In this document: positions 936-19,265 of the stretch, one piece after another
Numbering within the stretch: the first letter of the stretch is position 1
Layout: every line of letters begins with the position of its first letter
Assembly (NCBI RefSeq): GCF_030268085.1
Contig: NZ_BSDE01000003.1
Coordinates: 124,001 to 188,000 of the forward strand
Source of the DNA: Geothrix limicola
GTDB taxonomy: Bacteria; Acidobacteriota; Holophagae; Holophagales; Holophagaceae
Reading direction: 5' to 3'
Length of the DNA: 64,000 nucleotides
Position numbers and translations under genes: made by a program
The notes under the pieces: generated by a model
Told to the model about the DNA's origin: nothing
Seen by the model: only the letters and a program-made list of their open reading frames with translations
Database searches by the model: none

Positions 936-941
936 GGGCCC

Positions 942-1604
942 CTACTCGAAAAAGATGAACTCATAGTCCCCTTCGTAGCCGAAGTGGCCTAGAAGCCAGA
1001 TCCATTCCTCTTCGTCAAAGAAGCTCTCGGCCGTTAATGCCCAGCATTGAAGGTTGAACAGCTCCTGCTCGTTCCGGTAGCTCTCCACCATCAGGTACTG
1101 GCGGCGGGCGACGCGGCTCATCTCCTTCAGGGCCCGCTCCAGCTGGAAGATCCGCAGGTTGTGCAGGGTGCCCAGCGAGATCACCAGATCGAAATGCCCG
1201 TCGGGAAAGGGGAAGGGCTGGCGGGCATCGTGCTTGAAGAGGAAGGGCCGGATGGGTTCGGGCGCGTCGGCCAATCCGTGTTCCGAGATGTCAAACCCCC
1301 GGCACTCCGCCTGGGGCAGCAGCTGCTGCAGCTCGTAGAGCAGGTGGGCCTTGCCGCAGCCCACATCCAGGATCCTGGCGTCCGGCCCGAGGTTGTAGGT
1401 CTCGATGAGCCGCTGGGCCACGCCCTTCCAGCGTCCATCGTAGCGGTAGCCGCCGTAGCCGTAGCGGCGGTCCCCATCCCAGTAGTCGCGGCCGTACTGC
1501 TTGCTGACGAGCATGGCTTCGACCTTGTTGTCGACCATGCGGGCGAGACAGTCCCGCTTCGTCTGGCGGTGGAGGGGCGTCACGAGGTTCAGCAGGGGGC
1601 TCAT
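942..1604 (-). CDS. SAM-dependent class I methyltransferase
   Basis: A 220-residue protein starting MSPLLNLVTPLHRQTKRDCL. The Rossmann motif I is ILDVGCGKAHLL at about residue 77, followed by an acidic GFDIS strand-2 region and a DLVISLGTLHNL motif, which together identify a class I SAM methyltransferase of the Methyltransf_11/25 type. An N-terminal Tyr/Gly-rich stretch (GRDYWDGDRRYGYGGYRYDG) is unusual. The open frame runs much further upstream, but the ATG at 1604 is chosen because it falls 10 bases after the stop of the upstream GT41 gene. It is co-transcribed with the radical SAM gene behind it. The acceptor could be a sugar or a protein side chain; nothing in the sequence decides this. 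Confidence 0.82.
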   Translation of the reverse strand: MSPLLNLVTPLHRQTKRDCLARMVDNKVEAMLVSKQYGRDYWDGDRRYGYGGYRYDGRWKGVAQRLIETYNLGPDARILDVGCGKAHLLYELQQLLPQAECRGFDISEHGLADAPEPIRPFLFKHDARQPFPFPDGHFDLVISLGTLHNLRIFQLERALKEMSRVARRQYLMVESYRNEQELFNLQCWALTAESFFDEEEWIWLLGHFGYEGDYEFIFFE

Positions 1605-1614
1605 GTGGATCCGA

Positions 1615-3834: not shown

Positions 3835-3944
3835 GGACAGCGGGTTTCCAAGTGAGTGGTATGAAGGTAGGAGACAGGCCTATCTTGAACCTTTCGTCCC
3901 AGCTTGGTTCAAACATTTCAAACGTTCTGTGTAGAGTGGTGGGC
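3835..3944. promoter_or_regulatory. Divergent promoter region with TTGAACC/GGTTCAA inverted repeat
   Basis: This 110-base gap separates the minus-strand GT41 operon from the plus-strand sugar operon, so both promoters should lie in it. It contains an exact inverted repeat, TTGAACC (3885-3891) and GGTTCAA (3906-3912), with centres 21 bp apart, about two helical turns. TTCAAAC also occurs as a direct repeat (3908-3914 and 3917-3923). The A/T content is higher than in the flanking genes. A -35-like TTCAAA near 3908 and a -10-like TAGAGT near 3933 could drive the epimerase gene. An operator function is inferred from symmetry and position only. Confidence 0.35.
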
Positions 3945-4937
3945 ATGAGCCTCAAAACGGTCGTCACGGGCGGAGCGGGTTTTATCGGGAGCCATCTCGT
4001 GGAGCGGCTTCTCGGCGAGGGTCACCACGTCACGGTGGTGGACAACTTCGCCACGGGTCGCCTGGAGAACCTGGCGGGCTTCCGGGATCACGCCAACCTT
4101 GTCGTCGAAAAGGTGGACGTCGCGGATTTCCTGACTCTCCGCCCCATCTTCGAGGGCCGCGACTGGGTGTTCCACCTCGCGGGCCTCGCCGACATCGTGC
4201 CCTCCATCCAGCGGCCCCTGGAATACCACCACGCCAACGTGGACGGCACCATCTCCGTGCTGGAATCCGCGCGGCTCGGCGGCGTGAAGCGCCTGCTCTA
4301 CGCCGCGTCTTCGACCTGCTACGGCCTGCCCGACGCGGTGCCCACGCCTGAAACGGCGCCCATCCGCCCCATGTTCCCCTACGCCCAGACCAAGTACATG
4401 GGCGAGGAGTACGTGATGGCCTGGCACAAGATCTACCACCTGCCCGTGGTCTCGCTGCGCCTCTTCAACGTGTTCGGCCCGCGCTCCCGCACCACGGGAA
4501 CCTACGGCGCGGTCTTCGGGGTCTTCCTCGCCCAGAAGCTCGCCGGAAAACCCTACACGGTGGTGGGCGATGGTCAGCAGACCCGCGACTTCACCTATGT
4601 CACGGACGTGGTGGATGCCTTCGTGAAGGCCGCCCAATCCGAGGTGGCCGGGGAGATCTTCAACGTCGGTTCGGGAGGCACGTACAGCGTGAACCGCCTG
4701 GTCCAGCTTCTTGGCGGGGATGTTGCTTATGTCCCCAAGCGACCCGGGGAACCCGACTGTACCTTCGCGGATACCAGCAAAATATGCCGCGCACTCGGTT
4801 GGAAACCCCAGGTGAGCTTCGAGCAGGGGGTCACCCATATGTTGAATCACATCGAAATGTGGCGACAGGCGCCCGTGTGGGACACGGCCTCCGTCCAGGA
4901 AGCGACCCGCGACTGGTTCAAGTACCTCGGCCGGTGA
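3945..4937 (+). CDS. NAD-dependent epimerase/dehydratase (extended SDR)
   Basis: 330 residues. The nucleotide-binding motif GGAGFIGSHL lies at residues ~7-16, then VDNFATG. The active-site Ser/Thr region is ASSTCYG (~121-127) and the catalytic YxxxK is YAQTK (~145-149). LRLFNVFGPR and GDGQQTRDFTYV are typical of UDP-glucose 4-epimerase and related nucleotide-sugar epimerases. The frame is open to 3852, but the ATG at 3945 places the Rossmann glycine motif at the usual distance from the N-terminus. First gene of the plus-strand sugar operon, 7 bases before the kinase/nucleotidyltransferase gene. It could epimerise an NDP-hexose or NDP-heptose. Confidence 0.88.
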   Translation: MSLKTVVTGGAGFIGSHLVERLLGEGHHVTVVDNFATGRLENLAGFRDHANLVVEKVDVADFLTLRPIFEGRDWVFHLAGLADIVPSIQRPLEYHHANVDGTISVLESARLGGVKRLLYAASSTCYGLPDAVPTPETAPIRPMFPYAQTKYMGEEYVMAWHKIYHLPVVSLRLFNVFGPRSRTTGTYGAVFGVFLAQKLAGKPYTVVGDGQQTRDFTYVTDVVDAFVKAAQSEVAGEIFNVGSGGTYSVNRLVQLLGGDVAYVPKRPGEPDCTFADTSKICRALGWKPQVSFEQGVTHMLNHIEMWRQAPVWDTASVQEATRDWFKYLGR

Positions 4938-4944
4938 GCGCGCC

Positions 4945-6462
4945 ATGCCCACCACCGACAAGGTCCTGAGCCTCGAAAACCTGGCGCACCGGCTGGAGGA
5001 TCGAACCCAGGGACAGCGGGTCGTCCTCTGTCACGGCGATTTCGAGGTCCTCCACCCGGGCTACATCCACTATCTGGAGGAGGCCCGCCGAATGGGCGAC
5101 GTGCTGGTGGTGACCCTCACCCCCGACCGTCACCTGCCCCAGACCTTCACCTACCCGCATTTCGACGGGCCCCAGCGGGCCCAATCCCTCGCGGCGCTGT
5201 CCATGGTGGACTTCGTGGTGGTGAGCCCCCACGCCGACACCGCCGGCGCCATCCGCCTTTTGAAGCCCGATGTCTTCGTGCGCGGCGATGGCGAGACCTC
5301 CGACCACGGCGAGGGCCAGGCCCTGGCGGAAGTGGGGGCGCGGCTCGCCGTCGCCCACGCGCCCACGCCCGTGATGTCGTACTACAACCCGATGTCCGTC
5401 TACCCGAAGGAGGTGACGGAATTCCTGGAGGACTTCTCCTCCCGCCACTCGGCCGCCTCCATCACCCAGTGGCTGGATGCGGGGCGCCGCCTCAAGGTAC
5501 TCGTGGTGGGCGAAACCATCATCGACGAGTACCACTACGTCGAGACCATGGGCAAATCCGGCAAGGAGCCCATCCTCGCCACCCGCTACCAGCGCACGGA
5601 GAGCTTCGCCGGCGGCATCCTCGCCGTGGCGAACAACGTGGCCGCCTTCGTGGACCAGGTGGACATGCTCACGGTCCTCGGCCGCCAGGACGGCAAGCCC
5701 GATCCCACCGAGCCCTTCATCCACCAGCACCTCAATCCCAAAGTCCGCCCCATCTTCCTCTACCAGGACGACGCGCCCACCATCGTCAAGCGGCGCTTCG
5801 TGGAGAGCTACCCGCTGCAGAAGCTCTTCGAGGTCTACCTGCTGAAGCACATGGAAGAGGTCAGCCCCCTGGCCGACGAACTCTGCGACAAACTGGAGGC
5901 CATCCTGCCGGACTACGACGTGGTGCTCGTCACGGACTACGGCCACGGCATGATCGTGCCCCGCGCCGTGGAGCTTCTCTGCCAGAAGGCTCGCTTCCTC
6001 GCGGTGAATACCCAGACCAACGCCGACAACCAGGGCTTCAACACCATTTCGAAGTACCGCCGCGCCGACTTCATCAGCCTCTCCGAAAAGGAGCTCCGGC
6101 TGGAGGTGCGCAGCCGCCGCCGGGAAACCGCCTCGATCATGGAAGAGGTGGCCGGCAAGATGGGCTGCCAGACCCTGCTCGTCACCTCGGGCCAGCACGG
6201 CAACCAGCTCTTCAGCCGCAACGAAGGCTTCTTCCGCTCGCCTTCGCTGTCCAACCGCATCCTCGACCGCGTGGGCGCGGGCGATGCCGTCTTCTCCGCC
6301 ACCACCCTCTGCGTGGCCCAGGGCGCCCCCGTGGACGTGGTCGGCTTCATCGGCAATATCGTCGGGGCCCACGCCGTGGCGACGGTGGGTCACCGCACCT
6401 CCCTGGACGCCGAGCTTCTGGCGCAGCATATTTCAGCGCTTCTCGAACAGGGGGCCTCATGA
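4945..6462 (+). CDS. Bifunctional nucleotidyltransferase-PfkB sugar kinase (HldE-related, domain order reversed)
   Basis: 505 residues. Residues ~20-150 resemble a cytidylyltransferase-type domain (CHGDFEVLHPGYIHYLEEAR, then LLKPDVFVRGDGE). Residues ~185-505 form a PfkB/ribokinase-type kinase with FAGGILAVANNV, DYGHGMIVP and the catalytic DRVGAGDAVFSATTL (Asp ~446). HldE, which makes ADP-heptose, carries the same two activities with the kinase first; here the transferase comes first. The HxGH nucleotide-binding motif reads HPGY, so the second His is Tyr and transferase activity is uncertain. The stop overlaps the start of the GmhA-like isomerase. A heptose-phosphate substrate is inferred from the GmhA and GmhB neighbours. 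Confidence 0.82.
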   Translation: MPTTDKVLSLENLAHRLEDRTQGQRVVLCHGDFEVLHPGYIHYLEEARRMGDVLVVTLTPDRHLPQTFTYPHFDGPQRAQSLAALSMVDFVVVSPHADTAGAIRLLKPDVFVRGDGETSDHGEGQALAEVGARLAVAHAPTPVMSYYNPMSVYPKEVTEFLEDFSSRHSAASITQWLDAGRRLKVLVVGETIIDEYHYVETMGKSGKEPILATRYQRTESFAGGILAVANNVAAFVDQVDMLTVLGRQDGKPDPTEPFIHQHLNPKVRPIFLYQDDAPTIVKRRFVESYPLQKLFEVYLLKHMEEVSPLADELCDKLEAILPDYDVVLVTDYGHGMIVPRAVELLCQKARFLAVNTQTNADNQGFNTISKYRRADFISLSEKELRLEVRSRRRETASIMEEVAGKMGCQTLLVTSGQHGNQLFSRNEGFFRSPSLSNRILDRVGAGDAVFSATTLCVAQGAPVDVVGFIGNIVGAHAVATVGHRTSLDAELLAQHISALLEQGAS

Positions 6463-7058
6463 ACCCAGCACCCAGCATTTCCAGCCTCTGGCTTGAACAC
6501 CTCGCCCGGCACCCCGGGGAAGTGGTGAGCACGGGATCCGCCGGGGAGGCCTTCGCCTTCGACGAGGCCATCCAGGCCGCCAAGGCCATGCTTCTGGAGG
6601 CCAAGGCCCACGGGAAGAAGGTCCTCATCATTGGCAACGGCGGCAGCGCCGCCATCGCGAGCCACATGCAGACGGACCTCTGCCACAGCCTGGGCATCCG
6701 CGGCCTCGTGTTCAACGAGCCGCCCCTGCTCACGGCCCTCTCCAACGACAACGGCTACGAGAACGCCTTCCAGCGGCTCGTGGACCTGTGGGGCGATGCG
6801 GGCGACGTGCTCGTGGCCATCAGCAGTTCGGGCCGTTCGGCCAACATCCTCAACGCCTGCGCGGCTGCGCGGGCGCGGGGCCTCGGCCTCATCACCTACT
6901 CGGGATTCGGCGCCGACAACCCCCTGCGCGGCAAGGGCGACCTCAACTTCTACGTGGCCAACGCCAACTACGGCCCGGTGGAATCCGCTCACGCCGTGCT
7001 GGTGCACCACCTCACCGACCAGGTGCTGGCACACCTCCGCGCCCAGGTGCCCGCATGA
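6459..7058 (+). CDS. gmhA: SIS-domain phosphosugar isomerase, GmhA-like (sedoheptulose-7-phosphate isomerase)
   Basis: 199 residues, the usual size of GmhA. The SIS signature IIGNGGSAAIASHMQTDL (~57-74) matches the GmhA sequence type (GNGGSA-ASHFAxEL), with a second phosphate-binding stretch AISSSGRSANIL. GmhA converts sedoheptulose-7-P to D-glycero-D-manno-heptose-7-P in the cytoplasm. The start ATG overlaps the previous stop (ATGA), and its own stop overlaps the next start the same way. Cluster membership with a sugar kinase, a GmhB-like phosphatase and a nucleotidyltransferase supports a heptose role. Another phosphosugar substrate cannot be excluded. Confidence 0.85.
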   Translation: MNPAPSISSLWLEHLARHPGEVVSTGSAGEAFAFDEAIQAAKAMLLEAKAHGKKVLIIGNGGSAAIASHMQTDLCHSLGIRGLVFNEPPLLTALSNDNGYENAFQRLVDLWGDAGDVLVAISSSGRSANILNACAAARARGLGLITYSGFGADNPLRGKGDLNFYVANANYGPVESAHAVLVHHLTDQVLAHLRAQVPA

Positions 7059-8074
7059 ATTCCACGCTCAAACCTGGCCTCAAGTTCGACCGCGTGCTCG
7101 TCACCGGCGGCGCCGGCTATGTCGGCTCCATCCTGGTGCCCAAGCTCCTGGCGGCGGGCTACCGCGTGCGGGTGCTGGACCTCTACCTCTACGGCGACCA
7201 CGTGCTGGACGCAGTGAAGGATCATCCCGGTCTGGAGCAGGTCAAGGGCGACCTGCGAGACACGGAGCTCCTGAAGAAGGTGATCCCCGGCTGCCAGGCC
7301 GTCATCCACCTCGCCTGCATCTCCAACGATCCGAGCTTCGAACTGGATCCCGACCTCGGCAAGAGCATCAACTACGACGCCTTCTTCGGCCTGGTGGACA
7401 TCAGCAAGGCCAGCGGCGTGCAGCGGTTCATCTATGCCTCGTCCTCGAGCGTCTACGGCGTGAAGCCCGGCCAGGACGTCACCGAGGAACTGAGCCTCGA
7501 GCCCCTGACGGACTATTCGAAGTACAAGGCCATGTGCGAAGAGGTGCTCCAGGCCAAGCGCGAGCCCGGCTTCACCACGCTGACGCTGCGCCCCGCCACC
7601 GTGTGCGGCTATTCCCCGCGCCTGCGGCTGGATCTGGCGGTCAACGTCATGGCCGCCCACGCCCACGTCAACCGCCTCATCAAGGTCTTCGGCGGCGGCC
7701 AGATGCGGCCGAACCTCCACATCCAGGACATGACCGATCTCTACCTCAAGACCCTCCTGTGGGAATCCGAAGCCATCGACGGGAAGACGTACAACGCCGG
7801 CTACCAGAACCACACGGTGGGCGAGATCGCCCAGATCGTGAAGGGCGTGATGGGCGAGGACGTGGGCATCGTCACCACGCCCACGGACGACAACCGTTCG
7901 TACCACATCTCCTCGGAGAAGATCCGGCGAGAGCTGGGTTTCGAGCCGAAGTACACCATCCAGGCTGCCGTCCAGGATCTGAAGCAGGCCTTCCAGGCGG
8001 GCCTCGTGACGGATCCCCTGACCAATCCGCTCTACTCCAACATCAAGCTCATGCAGAGCGTGGCGCTCCACTGA
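7055..8074 (+). CDS. NAD-dependent epimerase/dehydratase (extended SDR)
   Basis: 339 residues. The NAD-binding motif is GGAGYVGS (~16-23), followed by LDLYLYG. The active-site region is ASSSSVYG (~128-135) and the YxxxK motif is YSKYK (~154-158); RPATVCGYSPR and HIQDMTDLY follow. It belongs to the nucleotide-sugar epimerase/dehydratase family, distinct from the epimerase at the head of the operon. Coupled to the GmhA-like gene by an ATGA overlap. In a heptose pathway such an enzyme could act as C4/C6 epimerase, dehydratase or reductase on the NDP-sugar; the sequence alone does not settle which. Confidence 0.87.
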   Translation: MNSTLKPGLKFDRVLVTGGAGYVGSILVPKLLAAGYRVRVLDLYLYGDHVLDAVKDHPGLEQVKGDLRDTELLKKVIPGCQAVIHLACISNDPSFELDPDLGKSINYDAFFGLVDISKASGVQRFIYASSSSVYGVKPGQDVTEELSLEPLTDYSKYKAMCEEVLQAKREPGFTTLTLRPATVCGYSPRLRLDLAVNVMAAHAHVNRLIKVFGGGQMRPNLHIQDMTDLYLKTLLWESEAIDGKTYNAGYQNHTVGEIAQIVKGVMGEDVGIVTTPTDDNRSYHISSEKIRRELGFEPKYTIQAAVQDLKQAFQAGLVTDPLTNPLYSNIKLMQSVALH

Positions 8075-8102
8075 GGCCGGCCCCCGCCCCTTCGGAGCCC
8101 CC

Positions 8103-8726
8103 ATGACGCCCCGCCTCGGCATCGACTTCGACAACACGATCATCTGCTACGACGCGGTGTTCCACCGCCTGGCCGTGGAAGCGGGGTTGTTGTCCCCGGA
8201 AGCACCCCCACGCCAAAAGGCCGTCCGCGACGCCGCGCGACGATCTCCCGAGGGCGACGTGGCTTGGCAGCGCCTCCAGGGCCAGGCCTATGGTCCGCGC
8301 ATCCAGGAGGCGACACCCGCGCCCGGCATTCTGGCCTTTCTGTCGAAGGCCCGACGTGCCGGATTCGAGGTCCACATCATCAGCCACAAGACCCGCTTCG
8401 CCTCCATCGATCCCACGGGCACGGACCTGCAGGCGGCCGCCGCGGCCTGGCTGGCGCGGCACGGTTTCTTTTCGGAAGAGACCGGCCTCGATCCAAGCCA
8501 TTTCCACTGCGGCGTGACGCGGCAGGAAAAGGTGGCCCTGATCCGGAATCTCGGCTGCACCCACTTCGTCGATGACCTGGTGGAGACCTTCCGCGAAGCC
8601 GCCTTCCCATCCACCGTCCAGCCCATCCTGTACGCACCCGGCGGAGAGCCTGCGCCCGAGGACCTGCCCCACCTTTGGGTGGCCCGCTCCTGGGACGAGG
8701 TCGCCCGAAGGATCCACCTTGTCTAG
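8103..8726 (+). CDS. HAD-superfamily hydrolase-like protein
   Basis: 207 residues. HAD motif I is GIDFDNTIICYD near the N-terminus, motif II is probably HIISHKT (~97), motif III is the Lys of TRQEKVALI and motif IV is HFVDDLVE. All four catalytic elements are therefore present. The ribosome site GGAG sits about 6 bases before the ATG. Its last eight bases overlap the next gene. It is not GmhB, which is encoded separately at 13008-13595; within this operon it could dephosphorylate another phosphosugar intermediate. Substrate unknown. Confidence 0.75.
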   Translation: MTPRLGIDFDNTIICYDAVFHRLAVEAGLLSPEAPPRQKAVRDAARRSPEGDVAWQRLQGQAYGPRIQEATPAPGILAFLSKARRAGFEVHIISHKTRFASIDPTGTDLQAAAAAWLARHGFFSEETGLDPSHFHCGVTRQEKVALIRNLGCTHFVDDLVETFREAAFPSTVQPILYAPGGEPAPEDLPHLWVARSWDEVARRIHLV

Positions 8727-9759
8727 TCCGGCCCTGTCCCTGGGCGCCGCGGCGCGGCTGGCCGGAAGCCCCGTGCGGGCCCTGAAGCCCCTGGGTGGCG
8801 GGCGGAACAGCCAGGTCTACCGGCTGGAGACCGAGGAGGACCGCGTCTTCGCGCTGAAGGCCTACTTCCGCCACGCGGGTGACCCGCGGGACCGCCTCGG
8901 CACGGAGTTCAGCGCCCTGCGCTTCCTTTGGGAACGCGGCCTCCGCTGCGTGCCCCAGCCCCTGGCCATGGACGCGGAAGCGGGGCTGGGCCTCTATGAA
9001 TTCATCGAGGGGCGGCCCCAGCCCCAGCCGGCCGAAGCCGATCTGGACGCGGCCTGGGGCTTTCTCGTCGGCCTCCGGGATCTGGCCTCCGACCCCGCGG
9101 CCCGGAGCCTCCCCGAGGCTTCGGAAGCCTGCTTCTCCCTGCGCGACGTGGCCCAGAACATCCAGTCGCGGCTGGACCGCCTGGGCGCCGTGGACTCCCG
9201 GCTGGCTCAGGAATCGGGGCTCGCGGCCTTCCTCAACCGGGATCTGGGACCCGCCTGGCTGGAACTCCTGGATGACTGCCAGGGGGTCTGCCTCCGCTCC
9301 GGCCTCGCCTTCGATGCGCCCCTGCCCCAGGCCCAGCGCACCCTGAGCCCTTCGGATTTCGGCTTCCACAACGCCTTGAAGCGGGCCGAGGGCATGGTCT
9401 TTCTGGACTTTGAATACTTCGGGTGGGACGATCCGGCCAAGATGCTGGCAGATTTCCTGCTGCACCCCGGCATGGAGCTGACGCTCCGCCAGCGCCAGCG
9501 TTTCGCCGCCGGGCTCATCGACCACCTGGACCTCGACACCCTTCCCCTTCGCACGCGCCTCAGCTTTCCCCTCTTCGGCATCAAGTGGTGCCTCATCCTT
9601 CTCAATGAATTCCTCAAGGGCTCCCTGGACCGGCGCGCCTTCGCCGATTTCGAGGCCCGCGGCGCCGAGGAACGCCAGGCCCAGCAACTGGAGAAGGCCC
9701 GACTCAAACTCCGACACCTCCTGGATGACCATGCCCACTTCCCCTACTTCCCCCTTTAG
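8719..9759 (+). CDS. Aminoglycoside phosphotransferase (APH)-fold kinase-like protein
   Basis: 346 residues from a TTG start supported by an AAGGA ribosome site six bases upstream, with no good ATG nearby; it overlaps the preceding gene by 8 bases. The glycine-rich loop LGGGRNSQVYRLE and FALKAYF (ATP-contacting Lys) open a small-molecule kinase fold. The catalytic loop reads SPSDFGFHNAL where the family normally has HGDxxxxN, so the His-Gly are replaced but the Asp and Asn remain. The metal-binding region is FLDFEYFGWDDPAKMLADF. Likely phosphorylates a sugar or similar small molecule; substrate unknown. Confidence 0.7.
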   Translation: MSSPALSLGAAARLAGSPVRALKPLGGGRNSQVYRLETEEDRVFALKAYFRHAGDPRDRLGTEFSALRFLWERGLRCVPQPLAMDAEAGLGLYEFIEGRPQPQPAEADLDAAWGFLVGLRDLASDPAARSLPEASEACFSLRDVAQNIQSRLDRLGAVDSRLAQESGLAAFLNRDLGPAWLELLDDCQGVCLRSGLAFDAPLPQAQRTLSPSDFGFHNALKRAEGMVFLDFEYFGWDDPAKMLADFLLHPGMELTLRQRQRFAAGLIDHLDLDTLPLRTRLSFPLFGIKWCLILLNEFLKGSLDRRAFADFEARGAEERQAQQLEKARLKLRHLLDDHAHFPYFPL

Positions 9760-10585
9760 CCCACCCACCTCCAGGCCGAGCCTCGACCGGAGGTCCAAGG
9801 ACCTGCGCACCCTCGTGCTCCGCGCCTTCGGCGCCGGACGCCGCGGGCACCTCGGCTCGGCCTTCTCCCTCGTGGAGATGCTGCGCGTGCTCTACGACGA
9901 CGTACTGCGTTTCGACGCCACCAAGCCCCTGTGGGAGGGCCGCGACCGCATGATCCTCTCCAAGGGCCATGGCTGTCTGGCGCTCTACGCCATCCTCGCG
10001 GACAAGAGCTTCTTTCCCGAATCGGAGCTGATGAAGTTCTGCCACATCGACGGCAAGCTCGGCGGCCATCCCGAACGCGGCAAGGTGCCCGGCGTCGAAG
10101 CCTCCACGGGCAGCCTGGGTCACGGCCTGTCCATCGGCGTCGGCATGGCCCTCGCGCTACGGGCGCGGCCCGAAGCCGGCCGAGTCTTCGTCATCGACAG
10201 CGACGGTGAGTGCAATGAAGGCTCGCTCTGGGAGGCCGCGCTGTCGGCTTCCAAGCACCGGCTGGAGAACCTCACGGTCCTCGTGGACTACAACCACATG
10301 CAGTCCTACAGCACGACGGCCGAGGTCCTCAACCTCGAGCCCATGGCCGACAAGTGGCGCGCCTTCGGGTTCGCGGTGAAGGAAGTGGACGGCCACGATG
10401 TGGCGTCGCTGCGCGAGGCGCTCAAGGCGACGCCCTTCGAGCCGGGCCGCCCCAGCGCGCTCATCTGTCACACCGTGAAGGGCCGGGGCGTGCCGCTGCT
10501 GGAGTGGAACGCCGCCTGGCACCACAAGAACAAGGTCACCGACGAGGAAGTCGCGACCCTGCTCGCCGCGCTCGAGGAGGCCTGA
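9725..10585 (+). CDS. Transketolase, N-terminal (TPP-binding) subunit
   Basis: 286 residues. GHLGSAFSLVEML, ILSKGHGCLALYAIL, GSLGHGLSIGVGMALA and the TPP/Mg motif DSDGECNEGS...VDYNH are all characteristic of the first half of transketolase. Transketolase moves two-carbon ketol units and makes sedoheptulose-7-P from pentose phosphates. The start is uncertain: ATG at 9725 or 9731, both overlapping the end of the APH-like gene. Encoded as a separate polypeptide, with the partner half starting at the overlapping ATG at 10585. Its place next to GmhA and kinase genes suggests a dedicated source of a long-chain ketose phosphate. Confidence 0.88.
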   Translation: MTMPTSPTSPFSPPTSRPSLDRRSKDLRTLVLRAFGAGRRGHLGSAFSLVEMLRVLYDDVLRFDATKPLWEGRDRMILSKGHGCLALYAILADKSFFPESELMKFCHIDGKLGGHPERGKVPGVEASTGSLGHGLSIGVGMALALRARPEAGRVFVIDSDGECNEGSLWEAALSASKHRLENLTVLVDYNHMQSYSTTAEVLNLEPMADKWRAFGFAVKEVDGHDVASLREALKATPFEPGRPSALICHTVKGRGVPLLEWNAAWHHKNKVTDEEVATLLAALEEA

Positions 10586-11520
10586 TGCGCAAGACAAGTC
10601 TGGATAGCGTCTACGAGCTGGCCAAGCAGGACAAACGCATCGTGTTCATCGGCTCGGACATCGGGGCCGGCACCCTCGACGAGTTCAAGGCCGAGATGCC
10701 CAACCAATTCTTCATGGAAGGCATCAGCGAGGCCCACGTGGTGGGCATGGCCGCGGGCATGGCGCTGGAAGGGAAGATCGTCTACATCAACACCATCGCC
10801 ACCTTCCTCACGCGGCGCTGCTACGAGCAGGTCGCCCTGGACTGCTGCCTCCACAAGACCCGCGTGCGACTCATCGGCAGCGGCGGCGGCCTCGTGTACG
10901 CACCCCTCGGGCCCACGCACCTCGCCGTCGAAGACATCGCCATCATGCGCGCCCTGCCGGGCATGACGATCCTCGCCGCGGCCGATGCCGAGGAAATGAA
11001 GCGCATGATGCCGCACACCGTGGACATTCCCGGCCCCGTCTACATCCGCCTGGGCCGTGGCGGCGATCCCGTCGTCACGGATCCCACGGATCCCTTCGAG
11101 ATCGGCAAGCTGTTCCTCCTGAAACCCGGGAAGGATGTCCTCCTCATCACGACGGGCACCATGTCCAAGATGGCCCTGGATGCGGCCGACCTGCTGCGCG
11201 CCCAGTCCCTCGACGCCGGCGTGCTCCACGTGCCCACCCTCAAGCCGCTGAACGTATCTGGGCTCATCGCTCAGATGGCGGAGATCCCCGTGATCCTCAC
11301 CCTCGAAGAACACTCCGTGATCGGCGGACTCGGGAGCGCGATCTCCGAGATCCTGGCGGAGGCCGCCTTCACGCCGGCCAAGCGCTTCAGGCGTCTCGGT
11401 CTGCCCGATGCGTTCTGCGAAAACTACGGCTCCCAGGCCAGCCTGATGGCCAAGCAGGGTCTCAGCGTCGAACGGGTGGCCCAGCAGGCGCTGGAGTTGG
11501 CGGCCGGCGCGAGGGTTTGA
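10585..11520 (+). CDS. Transketolase, C-terminal (pyrimidine-binding and C-terminal) subunit
   Basis: 311 residues. FMEGISEAHVVGMAAGMAL holds the catalytic Glu region of the pyrimidine-binding domain; GPTHLAVEDIAIMRALPGM is the conserved His/Glu loop; GPVYIRLGRGG follows; and LITTGTMSKMALDAADLL with LEEHSVIGGLGSAI marks the C-terminal transketolase domain. The start overlaps the TGA of the N-terminal subunit by one base, consistent with a 1:1 complex. Split transketolases of this type occur in several nucleotide-sugar clusters and in central metabolism. The location argues for the former. Confidence 0.88.
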   Translation: MRKTSLDSVYELAKQDKRIVFIGSDIGAGTLDEFKAEMPNQFFMEGISEAHVVGMAAGMALEGKIVYINTIATFLTRRCYEQVALDCCLHKTRVRLIGSGGGLVYAPLGPTHLAVEDIAIMRALPGMTILAAADAEEMKRMMPHTVDIPGPVYIRLGRGGDPVVTDPTDPFEIGKLFLLKPGKDVLLITTGTMSKMALDAADLLRAQSLDAGVLHVPTLKPLNVSGLIAQMAEIPVILTLEEHSVIGGLGSAISEILAEAAFTPAKRFRRLGLPDAFCENYGSQASLMAKQGLSVERVAQQALELAAGARV

Positions 11521-11531
11521 TCGGGGGCACC

Positions 11532-12290
11532 ATGGATCTGGGCATCGCAGGAAAGCGGGTGCTGGTGACCGCCGGCAGCCAGGGGCTGGGGCGCGTGGCG
11601 GCCCTGGCCTTCGCGCAGGAAGGCTGCCGTGTGGCGGTGATCGCCCGCGACCAGGCGAAGCTGGACCAACTGCTGAACGAGCTCGGAGGCCCCGGCAAGG
11701 GGCACGCCGTCCTCAGCGCGGACCTGATGGAACCCCAGGCGCCGGCGCGGGCCCTGAAGGCGCTCGTGGCGCAGGGCGGCCCCTTCGACATCGTCATCCA
11801 CAACCTCGGCGGCACCCTGGGCCTGAAGGATCCACTCTCAGCCCCTGAACGCTGGGCCGAGGTCTGGCGCTTCAACGCCGGCATCACCATCGAGCTCAAC
11901 AACCTCGTCATCCCCGCGATGGAAGAGCGGGGCTGGGGCCGCATCGTCCACATATCCTCCACGGCGGCGGAATCCGCCCGGGGATCCGTGCCCTACGCCG
12001 CCGCCAAGGCCTTCCTCAACACCTACGTGAAGGGCGTCGGGCGGGCCTACGCCTCCAAGGGCCTCGTCCTCTCCGCCATCATGCCCGCGGCCTTTGAATC
12101 CGAAGGCGGCCACTGGGCTCGGGTGCGGCGGGACAATCCGGCCCTGGTCGAGGACTATGTCCGCCACCACCACGCCATCGGTAGGCTGGGCACCCCGGAG
12201 GACATCACGCCCTTCCTCCTCTTCATGGCCTCCACCCACGTCACCTTCGCCACCGCCGCCGTCTTCGCCGTGGACGGCGGCAGCATGTAG
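11532..12290 (+). CDS. Short-chain dehydrogenase/reductase (classical SDR)
   Basis: 252 residues. The cofactor loop VLVTAGSQGLGRVAAL (TGxxxGxG type with Ala in the second position), HNLGG (usually NNAG), the catalytic Ser in HISSTAAES and YAAAK (Tyr ~155) are all present. VFAVDGGSM at the C-terminus is typical of classical SDRs. The ATG at 11532 follows a CGGGGG ribosome site; a TTG at 11517 overlapping the upstream stop is the alternative. Last gene of the plus-strand sugar operon, ending 7 bases from the convergent nucleotidyltransferase gene. Probably an oxidation or reduction step on a sugar intermediate. Confidence 0.85.
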   Translation: MDLGIAGKRVLVTAGSQGLGRVAALAFAQEGCRVAVIARDQAKLDQLLNELGGPGKGHAVLSADLMEPQAPARALKALVAQGGPFDIVIHNLGGTLGLKDPLSAPERWAEVWRFNAGITIELNNLVIPAMEERGWGRIVHISSTAAESARGSVPYAAAKAFLNTYVKGVGRAYASKGLVLSAIMPAAFESEGGHWARVRRDNPALVEDYVRHHHAIGRLGTPEDITPFLLFMASTHVTFATAAVFAVDGGSM

Positions 12291-12297
12291 GCGCGGT

Positions 12298-13011
12298 TCA
12301 GGGGATGCCGGGGAATTCGGCCCGGGCGCGTTCCAGACGGTCTGGCGAATCGATGGCGCAGCGGTATCCGCTCAGGGGAAACCCGTAGACGCGCCCTTCC
12401 GCGATGAGGTCGGGGAAGACGTCGCGCGGGAAATCCTGGATACCCCCTTCCGCGATGCGCGAAAGGATGGAGGGATCCAACACGTAGATCCCCGAATTCA
12501 CCCAAGGGGACTCGACGCCCATCCGTTCGCGGTCATCGGGCCGCTCCAACAGCCGCGTCACGCGAAAGGTTTCGTCCAGCACCACGACGCTGTTAGAGCT
12601 GGCCCGCTGGTGCAGCAGCAACGTGGCCAGGGCGCCCGTCCGCCGGTGGGCGGCCACCATGGCCCCGAGATCCTGATTCGTGAGGATGTCGCCGTAGTGC
12701 AGGAGGAAGGGTTCGTCGCCCTGCAGGTGAGCCGCGGCATTCCGCGCGCTCCCCGCCGTGCCCAGGAGCTGGGTTTCAGGCACATAGGTGATGCGCAGGC
12801 CCAGGGCGGAACCGTCGCCGAAGTGATCCCGGATGACCTGCGGATGGTGGAAGAGATTCAGCACCACCTCGCGAAACCCGTGGCGCGCGAGGTTTCGCAG
12901 GATGTGCTCGAGGATCGGGCGGCCCTGCACCATCAGCATGGGCTTGGGGCAGTCCTTCGTGAGCTCCCCCATGCGGCTTCCCGCACCCGCCGCCAGCACC
13001 ATCGCCTTCAT
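12298..13011 (-). CDS. hddC: Sugar-1-phosphate nucleotidyltransferase (HddC-like)
   Basis: 237 residues. The N-terminal signature MKAMVLAAGAGSRMGEL...CPKPM is that of the NTP_transferase family; HYGDILTNQDL carries the metal-binding Asp; WVNSGIYVLDP is the conserved sugar-binding region. Short single-domain members adjacent to GmhA and GmhB are usually D-glycero-D-manno-heptose-1-P guanylyl- or other nucleotidyltransferases (HddC). The start overlaps the stop of the GmhB-like gene (ATGA), coupling phosphatase and transferase, consecutive steps of the pathway. The base of the nucleotide (GTP, ADP or CTP) cannot be read from the sequence. Confidence 0.82.
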   Translation of the reverse strand: MKAMVLAAGAGSRMGELTKDCPKPMLMVQGRPILEHILRNLARHGFREVVLNLFHHPQVIRDHFGDGSALGLRITYVPETQLLGTAGSARNAAAHLQGDEPFLLHYGDILTNQDLGAMVAAHRRTGALATLLLHQRASSNSVVVLDETFRVTRLLERPDDRERMGVESPWVNSGIYVLDPSILSRIAEGGIQDFPRDVFPDLIAEGRVYGFPLSGYRCAIDSPDRLERARAEFPGIP

Positions 13012-13608: not shown

Positions 13609-13995
13609 TCAGTAGGATTGATAGGATTTCTCCTCGATCAGATCGGAGCCCAGCAGCTCGTTGATCCTGCGTTTGACCTGCGCGCGGAGATCGTTCTGCC
13701 GGTAGACGGCGCGCGCCAGTTCGATGAAGCGCGCATCAAAGGCCCGTTGGCGCTCGCAAAGACGGATCTCGTCCTCCACCTCCCACAGAGCTTCGTTGAC
13801 GGCCTTCAGCTCCGCTTCGCAGGCCGCGAGATCCGGATGGGCGGCGTGGGCCTGCTCGCGCAGCGGCCGGAGGGCCTCCAGCTCGCGCCGCACGTTGGCC
13901 ACCTTGGCCGCATCCTGGATCCGCTCCGCCTTGATCAAGAGGATCGTCACCTTGTCGATCAATTCGCCCCAGGAAACCGGCGCCAGCACGGACAT
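13609..13995 (-). CDS. DUF6165-like small protein
   Basis: 128 residues, starting MSVLAPVSWGELIDKVTIL. The N-terminal PVSWGELIDKxTIL-IKxERI pattern matches my recollection of the DUF6165 family, small proteins often found next to TPR/glycosyltransferase genes. The middle is strongly helical and charged, likely coiled coil. The ATG at 13995 has a GAGGTG ribosome site 5-7 bases upstream; a GTG at 14001 is the less likely alternative. It leads the three-gene minus-strand unit with GmhB and HddC and is divergent from the TPR-GT9 gene. Function unknown. Confidence 0.75.
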   Translation of the reverse strand: MSVLAPVSWGELIDKVTILLIKAERIQDAAKVANVRRELEALRPLREQAHAAHPDLAACEAELKAVNEALWEVEDEIRLCERQRAFDARFIELARAVYRQNDLRAQVKRRINELLGSDLIEEKSYQSY

Positions 13996-14096
13996 CAGCA
14001 CACCTCATACCCAGGCCAGGACCTGCGGCTCCGGGCAGGTTCGATTCTAAGGCGCACGGGCAGGATTCTCCCTTAATTCCAATCCAGTACGCGCCT

Positions 14097-15593
14097 ATGG
14101 TGGTAAGCAAACACCCATGTCCTCATGAGGGTCTCTTGCACACCCATCCATCCGACAGTCTCGAGACCGCCCGCAGCCTGGATCTGGCGGGAAAATCCGA
14201 AGAGGCCCTCGCGGCCTTCCGGGCCTATCTGCAGGCCCACCCCGAAGTCGTCGAAGGCTGGGTGGATTGCGCGGGGCTGCTGCTGGGACTCAACCGGTTG
14301 GACGAGGCTGAGGCAGCCTGCGAAGCCGCGCTGCGCTTGGATTCCAGCCACTACGGCGCCCTCACCTATTTCGCCGGGATCCGCATGAACCAGGGCCGCC
14401 TCGACGAATCCGAAGCCCTCTTCCGCCGCGCGATCTTGCTTGAGCCGCGGCGCTTCGCCGCGCGCCTGATGCTGTCGGACTGCCTCGTGCGGAAGGGTGA
14501 TCCCGACCAGGCCCGGGCCCTGCTGGACGACGTGCTCGAGCAGGATCCCAGCCACGCCATCGCCATGGACAAGCGCAGCACGCTCATGGCCCTCCAGGGC
14601 GACTGGGCGGGGCTGCGCAAGAGCATGATGCGCCAGGTGGCGCGCTATGCGGGCGCCGAGGCGGACTACGTGTCGAGCCACCTGGACCTGATGTTCGGGG
14701 ACATGCCCGGAGGCTGGCAGAGGTTCGAATCCCGCCTCGACATTCCGAACCGGCCCCAGCCCGAACACACCCGGACCAAACCGCGCTGGATGGGCGAGCC
14801 CCTGGCGGGCAAGACCCTGCTCCTCACCTGGGAGCAGGGCTTCGGCGACACCTTGATGTTCCTCCGCTACGCGCCCCTGGCCAAGGCCCTGGGCGCCACA
14901 GTGCTCGTGGAGGTCCAGCCGCCCCTGGCCGAGCTGGCGGCCACCTGCCCGGGCATCGATCAGGTGCTGGTCCCCGGAGAGCCGGCACCCTCCTTCGATG
15001 TCCACGCCTCCCTGCTCTCCCTGCCCGCCCTCTTCGGCACGGACCTGGAGTCCATTCCCGCCGAGGTGCCCTACCTCCGCGTGCCGGACACCGTGCCCGA
15101 ACGCCGCAAGATCATCGACCAGGTGAATGCCTCCGGAGATCGGGTGCGCATCGGCATCTGCTGGGCCGGCAGCGAGCGGCACGCGAAGGATGCCAAGCGC
15201 TCTCTTCCCGCTTCGGCCCTGGCGCCGCTGAGTGCGCTGGGCGACGTGGCCTGGTACAACTTCCAGTTCGAGGCCAAGGAGGTGCCCCCCCTTCCGGGCC
15301 TCATCAACATGGGTCCGCTGCTGGCGGGCTTCACCAACACGGCCTTCGCCCTCAGCCACATGGACCTGGTCATCACCGCCGACACGGTCCTCGCACATCT
15401 GGCCGGCGCCCTGGGCATCCCTACGCTGCTGCTGCTCTCCTTCATCCCGGATTGGCGCTGGATGCTCGGCCGCAGCGACACACCGTGGTACCCCGCCACG
15501 CGCCTGTATCGCCAGCACACGCCGGGCGACTGGGATTCGGTGCTCCGGCACGTGGTCCAGGATCTGGCGAGCGATCCCGACACGCAGGCCTGA
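14097..15593 (+). CDS. TPR protein with GT9/heptosyltransferase-like C-terminal domain
   Basis: 498 residues. Residues ~20-190 contain four to five TPR units (repeated AL-x-LD/EP patterns). The C-terminal half has features of ADP-heptosyltransferase-like GT-B proteins: TWEQGFGDTLMFLRYAPLAK, VRIGICWAGSERHAKDAKRS, and MDLVITADTVLAHLAGALGIPTLLLL. The last is the donor-binding region of the GT9 family. Such TPR-GT9 proteins are candidates for protein heptosylation. It sits between heptose genes and flagellar genes. Start uncertain: ATG at 14097 has no ribosome site, whereas an in-frame TTG at 14136 is preceded by GAGGG. Confidence 0.82.
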   Translation: MVVSKHPCPHEGLLHTHPSDSLETARSLDLAGKSEEALAAFRAYLQAHPEVVEGWVDCAGLLLGLNRLDEAEAACEAALRLDSSHYGALTYFAGIRMNQGRLDESEALFRRAILLEPRRFAARLMLSDCLVRKGDPDQARALLDDVLEQDPSHAIAMDKRSTLMALQGDWAGLRKSMMRQVARYAGAEADYVSSHLDLMFGDMPGGWQRFESRLDIPNRPQPEHTRTKPRWMGEPLAGKTLLLTWEQGFGDTLMFLRYAPLAKALGATVLVEVQPPLAELAATCPGIDQVLVPGEPAPSFDVHASLLSLPALFGTDLESIPAEVPYLRVPDTVPERRKIIDQVNASGDRVRIGICWAGSERHAKDAKRSLPASALAPLSALGDVAWYNFQFEAKEVPPLPGLINMGPLLAGFTNTAFALSHMDLVITADTVLAHLAGALGIPTLLLLSFIPDWRWMLGRSDTPWYPATRLYRQHTPGDWDSVLRHVVQDLASDPDTQA

Positions 15594-15609: not shown

Positions 15610-15915
15610 TCAGGTCGTGCGGAGGTTCGCCTCGTAGCCCCGGAGGGCGCGGCTGCCGCGTTCCTGGGCGTCCAATTCGGCCTTCAACGCGTCCCGCAAC
15701 TTCTCGAAGGGGGGAATCCGCGCTTCGAGCCGAGCCCCCACCGCATGGGCCCTCGCGATGAGCTCAGCCCAGCCGGGGCCCCTCTCCGCCTGGGCCAGGG
15801 CCTGCTGGAATTCAGCGTTCCATTGGGCCAGCCCATCCGGATCCGGATTCCAGGCCGCATCGTCGATCCATTCCTCCATCTGGCAGATGGCGGAAAGAAC
15901 CGCTGCGTCGCTCAT
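15610..15915 (-). CDS. Small protein at FliT position, unknown function
   Basis: 101 residues, starting MSDAAVLSAICQMEEWIDDA. It is mostly alpha-helical and charged in composition, with no recognised motif. The ATG overlaps the FliS stop (ATGA), so translation is coupled to FliS. A small helical protein directly after fliS is where flagellar chaperones such as FliT are encoded in many bacteria, so a FliT-like chaperone is a reasonable guess, not a homology claim. Confidence 0.65.
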   Translation of the reverse strand: MSDAAVLSAICQMEEWIDDAAWNPDPDGLAQWNAEFQQALAQAERGPGWAELIARAHAVGARLEARIPPFEKLRDALKAELDAQERGSRALRGYEANLRTT

Positions 15916-16337
15916 ACGACCCGGTCCCTGACCTGGAAGTCCATGGCCGCGGCCGCGCCGGAAAGCTTGATGTGGAGCTGCTCCCAGGCCTGGCGGATCT
16001 CGCCCATGTGGAAGGACAGGGCCTCGAGGCGCGCGACATCCTTGTTGGCGCTGGCTTCGAAGACTTCCCAGATCCACCAGTCGTAGACCTTCCCGAGGTT
16101 CCCGACCAGCTCTCCGCCTTCTTCGTGGTTCAGCCGCAGGGTCGCCTCGTTGATGATCTCGGTGACCCGGCTCAGGCAGCGCCCCGCCTCCATGTGATTG
16201 CTCTGCTCCATGGCCTTGATGGCCTTCCCGATGAAGCGCTGTCCGGCCTCCATGAGCAGGGCGGCCTGCTGCACGGGGCCGGCGTTCATCACGCGCTGGA
16301 CGAGGTAGGCATCGGTCGGTGGAGCGTATGGTTTCAT
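15912..16337 (-). CDS. fliS: Flagellar export chaperone FliS
   Basis: 141 residues. The start MKPYAPPTDAYLVQRVMNAG followed by PVQQAALLMEAGQRFIGKAI matches the FliS pattern (N/D-AYLxxxVxxASPxxLxxMLYEGALRFIxxA). The remainder is predicted helical. FliS binds the C-terminus of flagellin in the cytoplasm, prevents premature polymerisation and delivers it to the flagellar export apparatus. It lies behind fliD in the normal order flagellin-flaG-fliD-fliS. The usual MLYEGA segment reads LLMEAG, a mild divergence. Confidence 0.88.
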   Translation of the reverse strand: MKPYAPPTDAYLVQRVMNAGPVQQAALLMEAGQRFIGKAIKAMEQSNHMEAGRCLSRVTEIINEATLRLNHEEGGELVGNLGKVYDWWIWEVFEASANKDVARLEALSFHMGEIRQAWEQLHIKLSGAAAAMDFQVRDRVV

Positions 16338-16391: not shown

Positions 16392-18134
16392 CTATGCGCC
16401 CGTGAGGCTCGATGCGGAAGCCCTCATTTGCGCCACCGTGCTCTCCATCGTCGAGAACTGCAGTTGAAGCACCTGCTTCCGTCGGTTCAAAGCCGACTGG
16501 GCTGCGCTGATCTGAGTCGCAAGTGTCTGGTTCTGTGTCCGGATGTTGTTCAGCGCCGAGGACAGGAATCCGGTGCCCGAAGCCGAGAAGCTCGTGATGA
16601 GGTCGCTCACGGCTTGGCCCGCGCCCCGGGCGAGGGTGAGGGTGCCCGTGCCCGTGGCGGTCACGGAAAGGGTCAGCCCTTCCAGTGGGGTGCCTGCGGC
16701 TCCGACGAGGGTCCCGTTGGAACCCGTCAGGCGGACGTTGGAAAATGCGGTGCCGTTGTAGGTGCCCGAGAAGGTGCCGGACACCGTGCCCCCCGTCGTG
16801 AACTGATCGATGTTGAAGGTCACCGGTCCCGTGGCCGTCTTGGCGCCCCCGCTCTTGAAGCTCACCACGCCGTTGGTGGTGTCACCCGAGAACGTGAAGA
16901 GGCGCAGGGCCGCGCTGGGATCCTTCTCCATGGCGGCCTTGAAGGTCGTCGTGTCGAGGCTCAGGGTGCCATCCGAATTGGTCCGGACTCCCAGGCTGGC
17001 GGGCACCGTGAAAGGCGCCGTGCTCGGCAGGCCCGCGGACGCGCCCGTCAGGGCGGTGCGGATCTGGGCCATGATGCTGCGGGAGGTGGAGTCGCCGGCG
17101 AGGGGCCCCTGGTTGAGGCTGCCGTCGGAGTTCTTGGTGGTCGCCGAGGCGCTCTTGTAGCCCGAGACCAGGGCGTTGAACTTGGTGATCACATCCTGGA
17201 TGCCCGCGGTGGCCGTGCTGATGTCCTGGGACACGGTCAGCGTCGTGGATCCCGTCTGGCCGCCCTGCTTGAGGGTGAAGGTGATGCCGTCGGCGGCGTC
17301 CGAGACCACGTTGCTTTGGCGGGTGAGCTGGATGCCGTTCAGGGTGAACACGGCATTCTGGGCCGTGGCCCCGGAAGTCGCGGAGCTCAGGCCGGTGATG
17401 GTGGTCGGCGCCGTGGTGCTGTCCACGAAACCCGCCGTGATGCCGAGGGTATTGACTGAGGCGCCGGCGGAGCTGCTCGTGCCGTTGGTGATATCGGCGA
17501 GCGTGATGTTGCCGCCTGTCTGTCCGGTTCCCGTGGCGTTGGCCGTGATGACCAGCTGATAGGGAGTGGTGCCCGTCCCCGTGTTCACGATGGAGGCCGT
17601 CACCCCGGCGCCCGAGGCATTGATGGCATCGCGCAGACCATTGAGACTGTTGTTGGTCACCTGGAAGGTCTTGATGACGCCATCCGTGCCCTGAACGGCG
17701 AAGGTCCCAGTCGTCTGACCGGCCGTGAAGATGGCGTTGGCCGGATTGGCCACGGCCAGGTTCGTGGGGTTTCCGCTGGCATCCAACGTAGGCGAAATTC
17801 GCCCCTTGGTCGCCAGGGTCGAGACCTTCACATCGTACGTGCCAGCACCGGCACCGCTCGCGGTCGCCGTGACGTAGCTGTTGTTCGTATCGGTGCTGGT
17901 GACGGTGCGGGCGTTGAACTTGTCCTGAAGCGCGGCCAGGCTCACGAACAGCGACGTCATGCTCGTTTGCATGGCCGTGAGGGCCGTGGTCTTGTTGTTG
18001 TTCCGGGTCTGCCTTGCCTGCAGGGCCGCCAAACCCTGCCCTTCCTGGGCAAGAATGGCGCTCACAAGCGCGTCGGTCTGAATCCCGGTGGACAGGCCCT
18101 GAAAACTAAGGGCGGAGTTTGCACTCGTCGCCAT
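16392..18134 (-). CDS. fliD: Flagellar filament capping protein FliD (HAP2)
   Basis: 580 residues. The N-terminus SALSFQGLSTGIQTDALVSA matches the FliD N-terminal domain (xxxxGLaSGIDtxxLVxxLm), followed by a heptad coiled coil. The centre is Gly/Thr/Ser/Ala-rich and low complexity, as for surface-exposed D2/D3 domains. The C-terminal ~100 residues (TQISAAQSALNRRKQVLQLQ) form the second coiled-coil/D0 segment. FliD caps the filament and promotes flagellin folding. Upstream is flaG (24-base gap), downstream fliS. Confidence 0.9.
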   Translation of the reverse strand: MATSANSALSFQGLSTGIQTDALVSAILAQEGQGLAALQARQTRNNNKTTALTAMQTSMTSLFVSLAALQDKFNARTVTSTDTNNSYVTATASGAGAGTYDVKVSTLATKGRISPTLDASGNPTNLAVANPANAIFTAGQTTGTFAVQGTDGVIKTFQVTNNSLNGLRDAINASGAGVTASIVNTGTGTTPYQLVITANATGTGQTGGNITLADITNGTSSSAGASVNTLGITAGFVDSTTAPTTITGLSSATSGATAQNAVFTLNGIQLTRQSNVVSDAADGITFTLKQGGQTGSTTLTVSQDISTATAGIQDVITKFNALVSGYKSASATTKNSDGSLNQGPLAGDSTSRSIMAQIRTALTGASAGLPSTAPFTVPASLGVRTNSDGTLSLDTTTFKAAMEKDPSAALRLFTFSGDTTNGVVSFKSGGAKTATGPVTFNIDQFTTGGTVSGTFSGTYNGTAFSNVRLTGSNGTLVGAAGTPLEGLTLSVTATGTGTLTLARGAGQAVSDLITSFSASGTGFLSSALNNIRTQNQTLATQISAAQSALNRRKQVLQLQFSTMESTVAQMRASASSLTGA

Positions 18135-18158: not shown

Positions 18159-18551
18159 CTAGCCCTGCTTGTCCACCAGGACGCCCGAGGCGCCCATCTT
18201 GGAGTCCAGAGCCCTCAAATTCCGTGCCATCGCAAGCACTTCCTCGGAAGGCACCTGGAGCACGACTGCCCCCGTGTGCTCGTCGACGACTTTAAAGACG
18301 GTTCGACCCGTCCCCTTGTCCACTTGGATCTTCAAGTCCGTGGCAGCCTGCTGGAGATGGCTGTTGATCTGGACCACGGCCTTTTCGGGGGTCGTGGCCC
18401 CCTCGGAGGCTGGCGTATCCGTCTTTTGAGGCTGGATGTCGGAAGCCGGCGCCGAGGGCTGCTTTTCGGGTGCGGGCCGCGATGGAGCTGCCGCCAGCGT
18501 CAGTGGAAGGCTCGACGCCAAGCTACCCGTGAGGTTGACTTGATCGGCCAT
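18159..18551 (-). CDS. flaG: FlaG family protein
   Basis: 130 residues. The C-terminal half has the FlaG pattern: VVQINSHLQQAATDLKIQVD followed by RTVFKVVDEHTGAVVLQVPS and an EEVLAMARNLR helix. The N-terminal half is Pro/Ala/Ser-rich and disordered. The start MADQVNLTG at 18551 is preceded by a strong GAGGAG ribosome site; the frame stays open to 18566. FlaG proteins affect filament length in other bacteria. It lies between flagellin and FliD, separated from flagellin by a strong hairpin. Confidence 0.85.
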   Translation of the reverse strand: MADQVNLTGSLASSLPLTLAAAPSRPAPEKQPSAPASDIQPQKTDTPASEGATTPEKAVVQINSHLQQAATDLKIQVDKGTGRTVFKVVDEHTGAVVLQVPSEEVLAMARNLRALDSKMGASGVLVDKQG

Positions 18552-18579
18552 GGTTGAACTCCTCAACCAACTTCAACGT

Positions 18580-18629: not shown

Positions 18630-19265
18630 TTACCGGAAGAGGCCCAGAACGGTCTGGCTCGAGGAGTTCGCGTTCGTCAGAGCGCTGGTGCCAGCCTGCA
18701 TCAGGATCTGGTACTTGGTGAGGTTCACCATTTCACGGCCGATGTCGGCGCCCATGATGGTGTCGGCCTGGGACGTGGCGTTTTCACCCTCGATGCCCTT
18801 GATGTTGGCGTTGCTCTGGGCAGTGGCCATGGTCGCGGCCAGGGTGGAGCGCTGCGAGTTGATGGCCGACAGCGCGGTGCTGGAGTTGGTGGCCGAGGAA
18901 CTGGCACCACCAAGGGCGGCGGCGGAGTTCGCAAGGGCCAGCACAGCGGTGTACTCAGCGGAAGTGCTGTTGCCGCTGCCTTCCAGTTCCGCCAGGCGGT
19001 AGGCCTGGTTGGTGGCTTCTTCCAGGTAACCGTCCGAAGCCTGCGCGGCGAAGTACTGGTTCTGGTAGGCCTGCACCTGGGCGGAGGCGGTCTTGGCCTG
19101 GGCGGTGAAGCCCGTGCCGGCGACCATGCCCGCGGCGTCGTCAGAGGCGCGGTTGACGCGCTTGCCGGTGGTGAGTCGCTCGATCGCCTGCTTCAGACCC
19201 ATCTGGGTGACGCCGAGCTGACGGCTGGCGGCGATAGCGGTGACGTTATTGAGAATACTAGGCAT
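18630..19265 (-). CDS. fliC: Flagellin, short form
   Basis: 211 residues. The N-terminus MPSILNNVTAIAASRQLGVT...RLTTGKRVNRASDDAAGM is a clear flagellin D0/D1 sequence, and the C-terminus ends ALTNANSSSQTVLGLFR like a flagellin D0 helix. The total is far below the ~270-500 residues of common flagellins, so surface D2/D3 domains are absent and only the D0/D1 core remains, with Ser/Thr-rich stretches (GGASSSATNSSTALS) that could be glycosylated. The ATG at 19265 has a GGAGG site. A sigma-28-like promoter lies upstream and a hairpin downstream. Confidence 0.92.
   Translation of the reverse strand: MPSILNNVTAIAASRQLGVTQMGLKQAIERLTTGKRVNRASDDAAGMVAGTGFTAQAKTASAQVQAYQNQYFAAQASDGYLEEATNQAYRLAELEGSGNSTSAEYTAVLALANSAAALGGASSSATNSSTALSAINSQRSTLAATMATAQSNANIKGIEGENATSQADTIMGADIGREMVNLTKYQILMQAGTSALTNANSSSQTVLGLFR

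Follow-up and report, generated by a model that had tools for sequence, protein, structure and literature searches.

Which protein, and which sugar, does a glycosyltransferase encoded beside a flagellar operon serve? The question is raised by a 64,000-nucleotide stretch of the Geothrix limicola genome, analysed here as a whole and referred to as the window. In it, a gene for a tetratricopeptide repeat (TPR) protein with a C-terminal glycosyltransferase (GT) domain, which we call TPR-GT (P0001), lies next to the flagellin operon and a set of sugar genes. A first-pass annotation of the window had read TPR-GT as a TPR plus GT9-like fusion, convergent with the flagellar operon, and as the best candidate for linking heptose to protein.

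Layout of the flagellar cassette

The TPR-GT open reading frame (14097-15593, + strand) starts with ATG and encodes 498 residues without an internal stop. It does converge with the flagellar genes, as flagellin, flaG, fliD and fliS all lie on the - strand. The features of the locus are as follows.

1615-3834, -: TPR + GT41 (OGT/SPINDLY-like) glycosyltransferase, divergent from the sugar module
3852-12290, +: sugar module: epimerase, HldE-like (order reversed), GmhA-like, epimerase, HAD, APH-like kinase, split transketolase, SDR
12298-13011, -: sugar-1-phosphate nucleotidyltransferase; best NCBIfam match ManC-/MurU-like; HddC model 72.4 of 300 bits
13008-13595, -: HAD phosphatase, GmhB-like; 149.9 bits, cut-off 178
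13609-14001, -: DUF6165 protein, 130 aa, divergent from TPR-GT
14097-15593, +: TPR + GT9-fold glycosyltransferase (TPR-GT), 498 aa; TPR about residues 18-200, catalytic domain about 237-492
15610-15915, -: 101-aa gene after fliS; no Pfam match; conserved here across the genus; FliT-like position
15912-16337, -: fliS (PF02561)
16392-18134, -: fliD
18159-18566, -: flaG
18630-19262, -: short flagellin, 210 aa, proposed acceptor

TPR-GT had been placed between the GmhB/HddC-like genes and the fliS gene; this holds, but its immediate neighbours are the DUF6165 gene and the 101-aa gene. The start codons of the DUF6165 gene and TPR-GT are 95 bp apart and divergent, with the GmhB-like and nucleotidyltransferase genes behind DUF6165, and the gap between them yielded no promoter-like site. 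Beyond the sugar module lie three TPR-GT41 genes, one of them directly divergent from the first sugar gene, and near these a further TPR protein of 736 aa that has no GT41 match (L074:14816-17026). A second fliS-like gene, together with upp, marks the end of the region at about 114.2 kb of the contig (C3), so that the 25 kb from fliS to the second fliS-like gene form one cassette inside the flagellar locus. A paralogue, 37% identical to TPR-GT, is found far from flagellar genes (G000:C1:495642-497066, L002).

The catalytic domain is GT9-like

A Pfam search of TPR-GT finds TPR families over residues ~30-157 (TPR_19, E 7e-18), while the GT9 family PF01075 misses its gathering score (17.3 vs 22 bits). 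The full-length AlphaFold2 model (31 aligned sequences, pLDDT 91) shows antiparallel helix pairs from residue 18 to about 215, followed by an alpha/beta domain. Searches of the PDB with the whole protein were swamped by TPRs and OGT, which led us to model the catalytic domain by itself (pLDDT 93, pTM 0.92) and to search with that model. Comparison of the C-terminal domain with GT9 structures had been proposed in the first-pass annotation, and its best matches are indeed of this family: 3TOV (Z 18.4), WaaF (1PSW, 17.0), WaaC (2H1F, 16.9) and TibC (15.4). Foldseek agrees with this ranking (E 1.6e-9), and unrelated GT-B folds score from Z 11.8 downward. One chain of the NDH-PSI supercomplex from plant chloroplasts (7wff_a, 9grx_1, 7f9o_6) falls among the GT9 structures and matches nearly as well as TibC (Z 15.6-14.7). 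A profile of the catalytic domain matched no PDB sequence.

Because the isolated model fits GT9 structures clearly above other GT-B folds, the C-terminal domain is, as modelled, GT9-like. The open reading frame, the Pfam repeats and this model together bear out the proposed fusion. For the C-terminal part, hhalign gives a probability of 95.9. In the merged alignment with WaaC, D251 corresponds to D13, the catalytic base of WaaC, and D429, T430 and H434 correspond to D261, T262 and H266, its phosphate motif. The GT9 D-(T/S)-G-x-x-H motif is kept except for a Gly to Val change, and the base and the D-T..H residues are invariant over 26 TPR-GT homologues. The first-pass annotation had made its reading depend on a nucleotide-heptose pocket, of which the GT9 base and phosphate motif are present, but WaaC K192 and E222 have no clear counterpart in the merged alignment. 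TPR-GT thus resembles the LPS heptosyltransferases WaaC and WaaF (GT9) in fold, catalytic Asp and D-(T/S)...H motif, and differs from them in its TPR domain, its sub-threshold PF01075 score and these two residues.

Two shorter GT9 domains of the same family, 46-47% identical to TPR-GT, occur outside the flagellar locus in relatives (L093 9097-10416 in G007; L096 9192-10160 in G029, contig C18). Their neighbouring open reading frames look phage-like by eye, and they are possibly phage-borne glycosyltransferases.

TPR-GT accompanies the short flagellin

Among 60 relatives, TPR-GT homologues are almost confined to the genus. A flagellin search finds a short flagellin (about 200-215 aa) in 17 genomes, this one included (in G035 as a fragment only), and 11 others have only a longer flagellin (241-270 aa where read). 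TPR-GT is present in 17/17 of the former and 0/11 of the latter; with kinship left out of account, a 17-of-28 split of this kind would arise by chance once in 21 million (C(28,11)). In nearly all of the 17 genomes the gene is at the flagellar locus, and its convergent placement beside fliS is kept in most TPR-GT genomes.

The six long-flagellin loci read (G001, G002, G009, G011, G030 and G033) run flagellin-flaG-fliD-fliS-101-aa gene-upp-eno and have no cassette. In TPR-GT genomes the cassette begins after fliS or after the 101-aa gene; at its other end, here and in many relatives with a long enough contig, stands a second fliS-like gene, followed by upp. Presence and absence of the cassette at one site is thus a natural comparison. 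On an enolase tree of 25 genomes, about 6 changes between presence and absence of TPR-GT are counted (shuffled mean 8.1, minimum 5), which indicates that TPR-GT was not inherited as a single block. The enolase gene itself belongs to this locus; its tree is no independent species tree, and this limits the test. Farther afield, two Nitrospirae loci also have flagellin genes a few kb downstream of a TPR-GT gene.

These data bear on whether TPR-GT might be an LPS or capsule enzyme that stands beside the flagellar operon by chance. GT9 enzymes are mostly LPS enzymes, and the sugar module resembles carbohydrate-cluster modules elsewhere, one of them with TIGR04323/04324 proteins. Given the TPR domain, the conserved flagellar placement in the genus and the separate GT9 genes elsewhere in the genome, we regard a chance neighbour as highly improbable.

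The short flagellins themselves (window 18630-19262; relatives L099-L114) lack the central domain of long flagellins and also the D1 stretch typical of these, such as ISNKLGADIRIAGQ...ANDGIS, and filament assembly from them may need other support. In G016, about six tandem TPR-GT9 genes, some apparently shortened or fused, lie between fliS and the second fliS-like gene (L012 2497-11428 / L076 8494-17425), as if copies had arisen by duplication and had then decayed or diverged in specificity.

Flagellin as the probable acceptor

In Caulobacter crescentus, the TPR N-terminal domain of FlmG binds flagellins and its GT-B C-terminal domain is needed, both domains being required for glycosylation (PMC7591256). 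TPR-GT has the same succession of a TPR N-terminus and a GT-B C-terminus and the same genetic link to flagellin, and would likewise be a soluble cytoplasmic enzyme. The likeness drawn here is in architecture and gene linkage, and FlmG differs in that it transfers pseudaminic acid, whereas the sugar genes nearest TPR-GT are no pseudaminic set. Genus co-occurrence, the same-site comparison and the FlmG precedent support flagellin as acceptor, and with it the protein acceptor that the first-pass annotation had favoured. We consider it probable that TPR-GT is a FlmG-like flagellin glycosyltransferase with a GT9 fold, flagellin binding and glycosyl transfer both being inferred. The enzyme is most likely cytoplasmic, gripping flagellin via its repeat domain and attaching a sugar.

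As proposed, TPR-GT would be a soluble cytoplasmic protein O-glycosyltransferase dedicated to the organism's short flagellin. The TPR solenoid would bind unfolded or FliS-bound flagellin before export, and the GT9-fold domain would take the sugar from a nucleotide-sugar, with D251 as putative base and D429/T430/H434 holding the diphosphate. It would then place this sugar on Ser/Thr of the flagellin, probably assisted by the DUF6165 protein. No clear Ser/Thr enrichment was found in the short flagellin.

As a counterpoint, members of the TPR-GT family are widespread away from flagella, in contexts that include a calcium-binding protein with type I secretion genes (Azospirillum), plasmids and tandem arrays. 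FliD or another exported protein could also be the acceptor. TPR-GT might then act on FliD or a large secreted protein, as family members elsewhere adjoin secreted proteins, or it might add a later sugar after a GT41 start, as three TPR-GT41 genes lie within the same cassette. Against this reading stand the tight co-occurrence with one flagellin type and the fact that in most TPR-GT genomes no GT41 gene is shown; we hold it to be decidedly unlikely.

The NCBI 'tetratricopeptide repeat-containing glycosyltransferase family protein' shares the architecture of TPR-GT, with 30-38% identity over 90+% of the length, but is named by architecture only, and its contexts vary (type I secretion, plasmids, cyanobacteria). 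GT41 enzymes of the OGT/SPINDLY type are likewise TPR plus GT-B protein glycosyltransferases; their family, PF13844, has no match in TPR-GT and matches three neighbouring genes. TibC has a GT9-like fold and modifies protein with heptose (PMC4358343). It and the other autotransporter heptosyltransferases (AAH) share with TPR-GT this catalytic fold and a protein acceptor, but TibC lacks TPRs and no autotransporter was noticed beside TPR-GT. The iron site of these enzymes needs four cysteines, whereas the TPR-GT catalytic domain has C284 and C355 alone. We found no paper that joins TPR, GT9 and flagellin.

The donor sugar

The first-pass annotation had heptose, made by the adjacent GmhB/HddC/HldE-like genes, transferred onto flagellin by TPR-GT. 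The fold is in keeping with this, since the nearest solved enzymes are heptosyltransferases, including the protein heptosyltransferase TibC, and so is the fact that the sugar module is part of the flagellar cassette, bounded by fliS on one side and the second fliS-like gene on the other. Elsewhere the genome has its own canonical GmhA gene, a heptose kinase gene and GT9 genes, which would make the module a dedicated set. In other organisms, DUF6165 genes adjoin rfaD and rfaE2 (Sulfitobacter) or stand beside LPS-type GT9 genes (G009, G010 and G160).

Several observations weigh against heptose. The HldE-like gene is absent from the 16 other TPR-GT genomes, and elsewhere in the genus it occurs in one genome, G030, which is without TPR-GT. 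In the stretches read of G030, G046, G048, G050 and G057 the module is found again, with neither TPR-GT9 nor flagellin. Its enzymes fall under the heptose-specific NCBIfam equivalog cut-offs (GmhA 85.6/209, HldE 155/521, GmhB 149.9/178 and HddC 72.4/300 bits), WaaC K192 and E222 are not clearly kept in TPR-GT, and the other TPR glycosyltransferases of the cassette could use the product of the module. The sugar genes also differ among relatives: epimerases and, by eye, a UDP-sugar dehydrogenase lie beside TPR-GT in G004; its neighbours in G003 include a transketolase pair and epimerases, and in G024 NeuB is encoded on the same flagellar contig. From the missing HldE-like gene, the modules without TPR-GT, the sub-cut-off scores and these differing sugar genes, we conclude that the donor of TPR-GT cannot be read from its neighbours. 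Of the proposed link of heptose to protein, the protein part, as flagellin, is supported and the heptose part is not. The local genes suggest a sugar whose synthesis involves a transketolase pair, a SIS isomerase and a nucleotidyltransferase; heptose is possible, because the cassette contains the module and the domain is folded like the heptosyltransferases, yet we think its transfer onto flagellin rather unlikely.

A nonulosonate was considered as donor: NeuB is encoded elsewhere in this genome and in G024, but none was found in four TPR-GT genomes, so that by this criterion a nonulosonate is not shared as donor.

The module has further features of its own. Its HldE-like fusion (window 4945-6462) has a reversed domain order, nucleotidyltransferase first and PfkB kinase second. 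A radical SAM enzyme, a methyltransferase and a TPR glycosyltransferase accompany the module both here (G000, window 1-4937) and in G030 (L139), the TPR glycosyltransferase being GT41 here and of the TIGR04372 type in G030. In the G046 locus, two genes are confirmed as TIGR04323 and TIGR04324 ('sporadic carbohydrate cluster', NCBIfam), a name on which we found no paper.

DUF6165 and a possible exchange of the cassette

DUF6165 adjoins TPR-GT in this genome, in G016 and in a Planctomycete, and in Paroceanicella it overlaps the end of TPR-GT by 4 bases. Two Azospirillum plasmids encode a single polypeptide in which a TPR-GT9 (35 and 34% identity to P0001) is followed by DUF6165 (66 and 64%), and in Paracoccus yeei DUF6165 comes after a relative of the GT domain that has no TPRs. 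The fusion and the neighbourhood point to DUF6165 as a physical partner of the GT9 domain, and, judged from sequence, it is likely a partner subunit of TPR-GT. It is not a strict GT9 partner, because it is also found away from GT9: in a distant acidobacterial family (f47) the loci read have no GT9 genes next to it, and in two loci (L195 and L196) it adjoins a GT4-like gene, named by eye. Within the genus, a minority only of the TPR-GT genomes have it.

We tentatively propose, as a plausible if not yet probable arrangement, that DUF6165 serves TPR-GT9 as an accessory or regulatory subunit, and that the enzyme, the second FliS-like chaperone and the short flagellin form an exchangeable cassette. 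One site would then switch between a long flagellin without GT and a short flagellin with at least one TPR-GT9, in some genomes with DUF6165. We found no paper on DUF6165, nor any report of a link between DUF6165 and glycosyltransferases or of such a cassette exchange.

Implications

The neighbouring heptose-like genes do not tell the sugar, which corrects the idea that they do. Should the link of DUF6165 to the enzyme be borne out, protein glycosylation would become a role for a family whose function is not known. TPR-GT offers a case, open to test, of a dedicated flagellin glycosyltransferase outside Proteobacteria, one that tracks a single flagellin type across a genus and for which closely related genomes without TPR-GT are natural controls.
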